From Phytohabitans houttuyneae (lineage in GTDB: Bacteria > Actinomycetota > Actinomycetes > Mycobacteriales > Micromonosporaceae), in NCBI RefSeq assembly GCF_011764425.1, contig NZ_BLPF01000001.1, positions 1,231,001 to 1,295,000 on the forward strand: a DNA stretch of 64,000 nt, read 5' to 3'. Positions 6,220 through 29,780 of the stretch are shown one piece after another. The position numbers were made by a program, and so were the translations under genes. Numbering within the stretch: the first letter of the stretch is position 1; the number at the start of each line of letters is the position of its first letter. Below the pieces are notes generated by a model. The model made no database searches and had not been told where the DNA came from. It was given only the letters and a program-made list of their open reading frames with translations.

Positions 6220-6981
6220 TCAGCGGACCGGGTTGCCCGCCTCGCGCAGCGTGTCCTTGACCTCGCCGATCGTCAGCTCTCCGAAGTGGAACACGCTCGC
6301 CGCGAGCACCGCGTCCGCGCCCGCCTCGACCGCCGGCGGAAAGTGCGCCAGAGCACCGGCGCCGCCACTGGCGATGACCGGGATCTCCACCACCTCGCGG
6401 ACCGCGCGGATCAGCGGGAGGTCAAAGCCATTCTTGGTACCGTCGGCGTCCATCGAGTTGAGCAGGATCTCGCCGGCGCCGAGCTCGGCACCGCGCCGCG
6501 CCCACTCCACCGCGTCGATGCCGGTGCCCTTGCGGCCGCCGTGGGTGGTGACCTCCCACCCGCTCGGCGCGTCCGGCGTGGCGCGCACGTCGAGCGAGAG
6601 CACCAGCACCTGGTTGCCGAACCGGTCGGCGATCTCGCTGATGAGCGACGGGCGCGCGATTGCCGCGGTGTTGACGCCCACCTTGTCGGCGCCGGCCCGC
6701 AGCAGCGTGTCCACGTTTTCCACCGAGCGGATGCCACCGCCCACCGTCAGCGGGATGAAGACCGTCTCCGCCGTGCGCCGCACCACGTCGAGCATCGTGC
6801 CGCGGTCGTCGGAGGACGCGGTCACGTCGAGGAACGTCAGCTCGTCGGCGCCGGCCCCGTCGTACGCGGCGGCCAGCTCCACCGGGTCGCCGGCGTCACG
6901 CAGGTCGACGAAGTTGACCCCCTTGACCACGCGACCGGCGTCGACGTCCAGGCAGGGAATGACCCGCACCGCCACGCTCAT
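6220..6981 (-). CDS. hisF: imidazole glycerol phosphate synthase cyclase subunit HisF
   Basis: 253-aa (beta-alpha)8 barrel that takes ammonia from HisH and converts PRFAR to imidazole glycerol phosphate and AICAR, step five of histidine synthesis. The first catalytic Asp is in [18 protein letters not shown] and the second in [10 protein letters not shown]. The phosphate-binding loops [10 protein letters not shown] and [12 protein letters not shown] are intact. It is the last gene of the minus-strand his operon. Its ATG (6981) overlaps the stop of a tiny upstream ORF (ATGA), and the Shine-Dalgarno GCGAGG lies in that repeat-like ORF. Length is normal. Confidence 0.97.
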
Positions 6982-7052
6982 GGCCGACCTCGCTTCGCCG
7001 CGGGCGGCCGCGAGGCTCCGTCCGCACCGTGCTCGATGGTCCGCTCGCTCAC
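6978..7052 (-). CDS. 24-codon linker ORF between priA and hisF
   Basis: GTG at 7052 overlaps the priA stop (GTGA) and its own TGA overlaps the hisF start (ATGA), so the ORF is coupled at both ends. The peptide starts VSERTIEHG and ends [13 protein letters not shown]. It matches the 27-codon ORF ahead of sepF (29697-29780) at both ends. The last bases, AAGCGAGGTCGG, supply a Shine-Dalgarno for hisF. Whether the peptide matters, or only the act of translation, cannot be told from sequence. Confidence 0.5.
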
Positions 7053-7768
7053 GACAGGACCGCCAGCGCCTCCGGCACCGTGAACGCGCCCGCGTACAGC
7101 GCCTTGCCCACGATCACGCCCTCGACGCCGTCACCCTCCAGGCCGGCCAGCGCACGCAGATCGTCCAGTGTGGACACGCCACCGCTCGCGATGACCGGGC
7201 GGTCGGTACGGGCGCACACCTCGCGCAGCAGGTCGAGGTTGGGGCCGGTGAGCGTACCGTCGCGGTGCACGTCGGTGACCACGTAGCGCTGGCAGCCGGC
7301 CTTCTCCAACCGTTCCAAAACCTCGAAGAGGTCGCCCCCGTCCTTGGTCCACCCACGCGCGGACAGCGTGTGGCCGCGGACGTCGAGCCCTATCGCCACG
7401 CGGTCGCCGAACTCGGCGACGACCCTGTCGCACCACTCAGGATTTTCCAGCGCGGCGGTGCCGATGTTGACCCGGGCCGCGCCGGTGTCCAGCGCGCGGC
7501 GCAGCGACTCGTCGTCGCGGATGCCGCCGGAGAGCTCCACGTGCACGTCGAGGCGGCGGACCACGTCGGCGAGCTGCTCCGCGTTCGACCCGCGGCCGAA
7601 CGCGGCGTCGAGGTCGACGAGGTGCACCCACGAGGCGCCGTCGCGCTGCCAGGCGAGGGCGGCGTCGAGCGGGTCGCCGTACACGGTCTCGCTGCCGGCG
7701 GCGCCCTGCACGAGTCGGACGGCCTGGCCGCTGGCGACGTCGACGGCGGGGAGAAGGACGAGGCTCAC
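7049..7768 (-). CDS. priA: phosphoribosyl isomerase A (HisA/PriA)
   Basis: 239-aa (beta-alpha)8 barrel isomerase converting ProFAR to PRFAR. In actinobacteria this protein (PriA) usually also performs the TrpF reaction on phosphoribosyl anthranilate; no trpF is present in the window, which fits but does not prove dual function. Key segments are [18 protein letters not shown] with the catalytic Asp near the N-terminus, [28 protein letters not shown] with the second Asp, and [12 protein letters not shown]. It lies 10 bp after a small membrane-protein gene and overlaps the linker ORF by GTGA. Confidence 0.95.
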
Positions 7769-28969: not shown

Positions 28970-29700
28970 TCAGCTCAGGTTGAAAAACCCGCCCTCTGCG
29001 ATCTTGGCCTTGTCCTCCGCAGTGACCTGGACGTTGGCCGGAGAGAGCAGGAACACCCGGTTGGTCACGCGCTCGATCGTACCGCGCAGTCCGAAAGCCA
29101 AACCGGCGGCGAAATCGACCAGTCGGCGGGCGTCCGCCTCATCCATCTCGGTGAGATTAATAATCACTGGTACACCGTCGCGGAAGTGTTCGCCGATGGT
29201 CCGCGCTTCCCGATAGGTCGTCGGGTGGAGCGTCGTGATCTGGTACCGCTGGTCCTCGTCCGCCACGACCGCGCGCTCGCGGAGCTGCACCTGGGGCGCG
29301 AGGGCAAGGTTTTCCCGAGTCGGGTACGAGACGGGCTCCGGCGCACTCGGCCGGGTGATCGACCGGACGCTGGCCCGCTCACCGTCGCGGTCCAGGTCCC
29401 CCGACCCGACTCGCGCGACAGCTCGCTGCGGGACGGTGAACGCTCCAGCGGGACGCGCTCGCCCAGCCGCGACCGCGTCCGCGGCGGCGGCTGCTCGTCG
29501 AGCTCCTCGTCCTCGTCCGCGAACTCCTCCGCGTACCGGCTCGTCCGGCTCTCCCACCCGTCCCGCGAGTCGCGGTCCCGGTCGCGGTAGCCGCTCTCCC
29601 GGTACCGCCCCTTGCTCTCGTAGCCGTCGTCGTAGGAGCGGTCGTCGTCCTCTTCCTCGACGAGACCGAGCCAAACCCCCGCCTTGCGCAGTGCACTCAT
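28970..29700 (-). CDS. sepF: cell division protein SepF, one-base frameshift
   Basis: FtsZ membrane anchor, essential in actinobacteria lacking FtsA. The N-terminus ([18 protein letters not shown]) and an acidic/arginine-rich linker are in one frame to about 29400. The conserved SepF core ([60 protein letters not shown]) is in the next. One added C in CCCCC 29398-29402 restores 243 aa with linker [23 protein letters not shown] 29700 overlaps the stop of a 27-codon ORF (ATGA) and uses GAGGA inside that ORF as Shine-Dalgarno. Confidence 0.9.
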
Positions 29701-29780
29701 ACCCGTCCTCGCTTCGCTGCGGGCGGGCATGAGGCTCCCGATGCGCTGAGCCCAACGATTCGCTCGCTTCGCTCACTCAT
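29697..29780 (-). CDS. 27-codon linker ORF upstream of sepF
   Basis: ATG 29780 follows a strong Shine-Dalgarno (GGGAGGTGAG, ~5 nt). The peptide starts [15 protein letters not shown] and ends [13 protein letters not shown], and its TGA overlaps the sepF ATG. Start, [11 protein letters not shown] end and overlap layout match the ORF between priA and hisF (6978-7052). The 130-bp gap to yggS holds nothing else I can support. Confidence 0.55.

Follow-up and report, generated by a model that had tools for sequence, protein, structure and literature searches.

MIRUs of mycobacteria serve in the typing of tuberculosis strains; they vary in tandem copy number and have been proposed to transpose into DTGA sites, and we know of no account of how units of this type move. 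The palindromic elements of Rickettsia are repeats compatible with coding sequence and lie inside ORFs. Elements of the IS200/IS605 group prefer the lagging-strand template. According to the accessible parts of the sources, MIRUs insert at start codons and carry a coupled small ORF (PMC12548453), which has the orientation of its neighbours and an NTGA overlap (PMC12548453, PMC4473831), and they are described there without dyad symmetries (PMC4473831). IS608 and ISDra2 of IS200/IS605, in the portion of their source at hand, insert 3′ of a tetranucleotide that is kept in the left flank and possess an internal guide that pairs with the target, as well as end hairpins; ISDra2 also pairs base +1 with +15 (PMC5934647). 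REPs, so far as the available section of their source describes them, are mainly intergenic, contain GTAG and are associated with TnpAREP (PMC8266576).

The two small ORFs studied here lie in the window, the whole 64-kb stretch of Phytohabitans houttuyneae DNA that was analysed (Table 1). An earlier note on this DNA had described a 24-codon ORF bridging priA and hisF by GTGA and ATGA overlaps, a 27-codon frame before sepF that ends in an ATGA overlap, and a motif shared by both at Shine-Dalgarno distance. Both frames are present in the sequence and in the ORF list, and the motif is GAGG, 6 nt before the downstream ATG in both copies. The GTGA that opens copy 1 contains the priA stop and the ATGA that closes it is the hisF start. 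The closing ATGA of copy 2 is likewise the start of sepF, identified by Pfam PF04472; this copy has GGAGG upstream of its own start and does not overlap the yggS-like gene before it, so that overlap with the preceding gene is present for the hisF copy and absent for the sepF copy. Among the model matches of the genome these are the only two in the window. The sepF gene itself (window 28970-29702, minus strand) is split over two frames; the break also occurs in P. flavus (L188) and is not present in three other congeners; either a genuine frameshift or a sequencing error in GC-rich DNA may be behind it.

Table 1. Features of the two copies and of the genes around copy 1, in window coordinates.
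Feature	Position	Strand	Length or basis
Copy 1, 75-nt form: small ORF GTG...TGA between priA and hisF	6978..7052	-	24 codons
Copy 1, left GTGA, presumed native hisF start	7052-7049	-	
Copy 1, right ATGA, presumed element-borne start	6981-6978	-	
Copy 1, left hairpin, start-codon G1 : C14 (= column 23 of the 84-nt form)	7039..7052	-	predicted; sequence and covariation
Copy 1, right hairpin TCGC...ATGA, C.A mismatch at start-codon position	6978..7013	-	
GAGG, Shine-Dalgarno-like, 6 nt before hisF ATG	6988..6991	-	putative function
Copy 2, 84-nt form: small ORF ATG...TGA before sepF	29697..29780	-	27 codons
Copy 2, left hairpin ATGAGT GAGC-GAA-GCGA GCGAAT, GNA triloop	29758..29780	-	predicted from covariation
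Copy 2, right hairpin TCATGCCCG...CGGGTATGA	29697..29732	-	
GAGG, Shine-Dalgarno-like, 6 nt before sepF ATG	29707..29710	-	putative function
hisF, downstream of copy 1	6220..6981	-	HisF TIGR00735 (NCBIfam)
priA (hisA/trpF), upstream of copy 1	7049..7768	-	HisA-TrpF TIGR01919 (NCBIfam)

Dispersed copies at gene starts

Copies are dispersed through the host genome (11.34 Mb, 5 contigs). Used as DNA queries, copies 1 and 2 found 37 and 38 places in it at E ≤ 1e-3, and a sequence-only model built from 27 of its copies gave 55 matches at E ≤ 0.01 and 42 at E ≤ 1e-5, the best at 1e-24. Over the six genus genomes the model counts were 48 (own), 2, 9, 20, 4 and 86. The two host flanks of 18 loci of the own genome were joined and searched against these six genomes; for 17 of the 18 the gene start aligned without interruption in one or more congeners, L014 being the sole locus with no empty site displayed in the genus. 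The interpretation as a small repeat element, for which the earlier note had set further genome copies and orthologous loci with and without the unit as tests, is backed by the 42 stronger matches and these 17 loci, and also by the conserved frame and the NTGA ends described below.

The frame runs open from the left start to an NTGA that overlaps the next gene. Among 130 matches collected in the genus, 116 are of regular length, either 84 nt (97 copies) or 75 nt (19 copies), and 14 irregular. None of the 116 regular copies contains an internal stop; 112 begin with RTGA and 114 end in NTGA (N = A, G or T). After the right start, 60 open codons follow in 102 of the 116, and 12 of the remaining 14 are followed by another copy, leaving two true exceptions (L018 and one L084 copy); put differently, 102 of the 104 copies not followed by another copy lead into at least 60 open codons. 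As a baseline, 60 open codons follow 51% of the 154 RTGAG sites in the window, which by crude gene calls lie near called gene starts (9), between genes (34) or inside genes (111). Ten of the 11 irregular copies scored by script (48 to 105 nt) are in frame, L100 being out of frame; read by eye, L108 stays in frame up to a closing ATGA that overlaps the next start, and L104 ends in TAG and has no right end. In L105 of the own genome a left end of a related subfamily (GAGCTTGCGAGCGAATC) continues directly into a long open frame, which may be an insertion turned into a protein N-terminus.

Tandem arrays are found as well. Their spacing is mostly the ORF length minus 4, and hence the units share RTGA. 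Array members can be identical to each other. Unlinked 84-nt copies within one genome are at least 3 bases apart, and with no identical pair among those compared within a genome, recent jumps were not seen. In the tandem copies of L038 (own genome) the internal junction is GCGA in place of NTGA and the first ORF reads through. Of twelve weak or partial loci chosen in the own genome, 11 were read (all but L106); most are copies with internal deletions that nevertheless end at a gene start, and no transposase indicating a longer autonomous element was seen by eye in the stretches shown, the flanks being unannotated. Ten loci compared with Rfam gave no family at the curated cut-off and one chance-level match (E 0.036) outside the element.

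The probable native start codon can be picked out where the left and right purines differ, as in five of the 18 tested sites, for which 16 empty sites were displayed. The empty site carries the left purine in 12 of the 16 (L033 5/5, L028 2/2, L001 2/3, L015 2/4, L016 1/2) and the right purine in 4, one more partial match for L028 being left out of the count. Insertion therefore took place most likely 3′ of RTGA, with the new downstream start brought by the element; at L033, for instance, the element would have replaced an ATG start by GTG. On this sequence comparison, the left RTGA is most likely the host gene's own start, and the element would supply a stop and a new downstream start. The earlier proposal, of a small repeat that splices in without breaking expression through its own start, stop and ribosome-binding site, is supported at the level of sequence, with the refinement that the left start most likely belongs to the host.

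The element extends beyond the genus. Exact matches to its right-end core occur in Phytohabitans maris, P. suffuscus, P. flavus, ‘Micromonospora sp. CPCC 205371’ and Actinopolymorpha alba. Actinopolymorpha alba belongs to another family; by the model it has four tandem copies (L239 814-1136), very similar to those of Phytohabitans and adjoining tmk-like and holB-like genes (named by eye), and horizontal spread is possible. A structured model at E ≤ 1e-5 matched at least 75 of 121 genomes of the family (27/44 genera) and at least 26 of 394 genomes of the class (14/138 genera), counts that are lower bounds with few candidates scored per genome. At E ≤ 1e-3 it matched all three genomes of genus g37. 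Forty family and class loci were fetched; 36 were readable with NTGA-type ends and 4 were not parsed. Thirty-five of the readable loci lead into a 100-codon open frame and one into another copy, and the frame is lost in a single case (L277, 83 nt).

Predicted end hairpins and the start-codon purine

Without presupposing a structure, mutual information was calculated for every pair of columns in 93 distinct 84-mers. Pairs 54-79, 52-81 and 1-23 came out on top, with 5-19 at rank 13, 59-74 at 14 and 6-18 at 20; column pairs outside the structure, e.g. 45-47 and 47-62, interleave in this ranking. The covariation fits a hairpin at each end. In the right one TCRY pairs with the final RTGA, and the hairpin includes the SD-like GAGG and the next start codon. 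The left end, RTGAGC GAGC-GNA-GCGA GCGAAY, comprises R1-Y23, T2-A22, G.A mismatches, G5-C19, C6-G18 and a GNA triloop. In other genera the outer mismatches become Watson-Crick pairs (GTGACC/GGTCAC, ATGACC/GGTCAT). For 20 hand-picked variants, the covariation score was reached by 0 of 500 shuffles and the pair-type count by 18 of 500, and slid versions score below the observed one, the G.A positions being counted as unpaired. GCGAAGC is an extraordinarily stable DNA hairpin, according to the part of the source available (PMC6582339). Standard folding parameters did not predict the left hairpin for the single strands tried, it was absent from the DNA folding program's prediction for copy 2 as a single copy, and single-copy DNA folding energies of most of six strands were no better than those of shuffles. 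The left hairpin is proposed on the grounds of covariation.

The first base of the left start codon is associated with an internal pyrimidine. Among 112 distinct genus copies, R1 and Y23 form 81 A-T, 21 G-C, 4 A-C, 2 G-T and 4 other combinations, i.e. Watson-Crick pairs in 102 (Fisher p 2e-16 on 108 copies). In the 19 copies with unlike left and right purines, R1-Y23 is Watson-Crick in all 19 and R81-Y52 in 14. The association recurs in three other genera (G446, G465, G445), where 113 listed matches in the fetched loci gave 101 parsed, 99 scored and 93 distinct copies, with 59 A-T, 24 G-C, 3 A-C, 6 G-T and 1 other (p 2e-13). A second subfamily (MTERSEG, C5-G19) occurs in these genera. A tree built from the remaining columns has about 18 changes of Y23, near the shuffled mean of 21, and on such a tree, weak at 80 bases, a single inherited lineage is therefore not the cause. 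The R1-Y23 pairing could have arisen after insertion. A model in which ATGA pairs with TCAT (columns 23-26) was also considered and dropped, since it leaves the covariation of A/G with T/C unexplained.

The base following the element was examined in 56 distinct copies without another copy behind them. It is C in 18 of 18 copies with G19; copies with C19 have G in 26, C in 7 and another base in 3, and two copies carry T19. Column 48, the right-hairpin partner, predicts base +1 about as well as column 19, and base +1 may therefore be element-borne. Its reading as a pure target base was set aside; the crossover lies somewhere inside RTGASC.

Proposed mechanism and rival explanations

We consider it probable that the unit, ~70-80 bp long, is a mobile repeat of MIRU-like type that is non-autonomous and enters gene starts immediately 3′ of RTGA. 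Translation of the small ORF would begin at the start codon native to the host gene, and the ribosome would terminate and then reinitiate at the element-borne NTGA, the host gene staying expressed. Insertion would proceed via single-stranded DNA and, in the manner of IS200/IS605, the target RTGAS would pair with a guide located ~15-19 nt in from the left end; the mobilising enzyme would presumably act in trans. Translation, coupling and transposition of the element are all deduced here from patterns in DNA. More tentatively, and as a possibility that we hold somewhat short of probable, these units may represent a widespread actinobacterial class of guide-directed elements targeting start codons. 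Its guide would pair with the start codon and the next base (ATG or GTG with a Ser/Thr second codon), and insertion would occur duplication-free, as folded single-stranded DNA, by an undiscovered non-Y1 transposase family.

Alternatively, the unit may be a control module acting on RNA, its mRNA hairpins hiding start codons and SD sequences such that translation of the downstream gene requires prior translation of the upstream ORF, and its pairs being kept by site-wise selection on expression. The position of the right hairpin over the SD-like GAGG and the next start codon, and the absence of internal stops from all 116 regular copies, fit such a module. By itself, however, it leaves the empty sites, the arrays and the choice of RTGA unexplained; the copies precede very different genes (hisF, sepF, guaA, purQ), and of the copies at the guaA site, the one in the own genome retains the left pair, whereas that of P. 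suffuscus (L171) no longer has it (A-C). We regard the RNA module as unlikely. Still less support is found for a conserved functional microprotein duplicated before several genes, which we judge most improbable. MSERSER-like starts do recur across families, but much of the linker (about 27-47) varies, and loop position 12, where an Arg codon has its third base, varies freely (28 C, 27 G, 23 A, 19 T); degenerate third positions in the hairpins, by contrast, are fixed (column 21 A in 95/97, column 57 G in 97/97). Conservation thus tracks nucleotides more than the peptide, and the peptides of both window copies have no Pfam or NCBIfam match. Chance similarity through GC-rich codon usage has next to no probability: the GC content is high and GCGAGC-like words are common, but the dozens of whole-unit matches, with E values down to 1e-24 (by a model built from 27 of them), the places found by plain DNA comparison, the empty sites and the covariation rule it out.

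Two further readings concern the family to which a mobile repeat would belong. Ordinary MIRUs of the same sequence family as the mycobacterial units would account for the size and the tandem copy-number variation, and for the small ORF oriented as its neighbours with an NTGA overlap, as given in the accessible parts of PMC12548453 and PMC4473831. Against this stand the two covarying hairpins, since the available part of the latter source describes MIRUs as lacking dyad symmetry, and the structured model, which matched none of the 14 genomes of g27, a genus taken to be Mycobacterium, at E ≤ 1e-3; we hold this identity to be quite unlikely. A REP-like element mobilised by a Y1 transposase resident in the host (RAYT/IS200) would explain the hairpin ends, the insertion 3′ of a tetranucleotide and the guide-like pairing, and a Y1 gene is detectable in 10 of 35 carriers. 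Y1_Tnp is absent, however, from all six genus genomes and from 25 of the 35 carriers, and the 10 Y1 loci examined had no adjoining element by the model of Phytohabitans copies only. Y1 as a required resident partner is accordingly rejected, and this reading, largely refuted as a resident system, is very unlikely; a plasmid- or phage-borne enzyme is possible. Among the matches listed, 75 of 130 loci are co-directional with replication, a raw count without gene baseline that places the origin at dnaA and assumes the terminus opposite; a clear excess on the strand that IS200/IS605 prefers is not evident.

A class of elements whose ends covary offers a definite rule of target choice that can be put to the test. 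Our analysis suggests that central genes (hisF, guaA, purQ, sepF) can have their start codon reset by short mobile DNA, which is tolerated through a minimal ORF that couples translation. By extension, where annotated actinobacterial genes begin with an MSERSER-like peptide or have one before them, some of these may be insertions, and the arrays could be of use in marking strains.

Comparison with known systems

The earlier note knew of no description of such a unit, which needs correction, since mycobacterial MIRUs have the same arrangement in the parts of PMC12548453 and PMC4473831 at hand. As far as those parts describe it, a short repeat at gene starts, a small ORF in the same direction and a -4 (NTGA) overlap are all found here, and the size and the tandem copy-number variation known of MIRUs are similar. 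The elements differ in their two covarying end hairpins, no dyad symmetry being described for MIRUs in the accessible part of the source, in their hosts and in the guide-like start-codon pairing; MIRUs enter this comparison by description, not by sequence. With IS200/IS605 the elements have predicted hairpins at both ends in common. They may also share insertion 3′ of a short target kept in the left flank without duplication, with which 12 of the 16 informative empty sites agree, and guide pairing, which the association of the flank purine with internal column 23 resembles. Unlike IS200/IS605, they have no transposase gene within the element and no Y1 enzyme in 25 of 35 carriers, the guide lies 3′ of the small hairpin, and the replication-strand bias is not clear. 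REPs and BIMEs, as partially described in their source, are likewise non-autonomous folded repeats, whereas the present elements lie at start codons and carry an ORF, and a conserved GTAG was absent from the element alignments. The Rickettsia palindromic elements are similarly coding-compatible repeats, in contrast to the separate ORF at a start codon seen here. The hairpins, the guide-like pairing and the occurrence outside mycobacteria were not found described in the literature searched, which included few subscription papers, and it is the covarying hairpins, the guide-like pairing and the spread outside mycobacteria that appear new relative to MIRUs. The likeness of the element to MIRUs is one of behaviour rather than of demonstrated descent, and its pairing follows a logic like that of IS200/IS605 without that family's enzyme.
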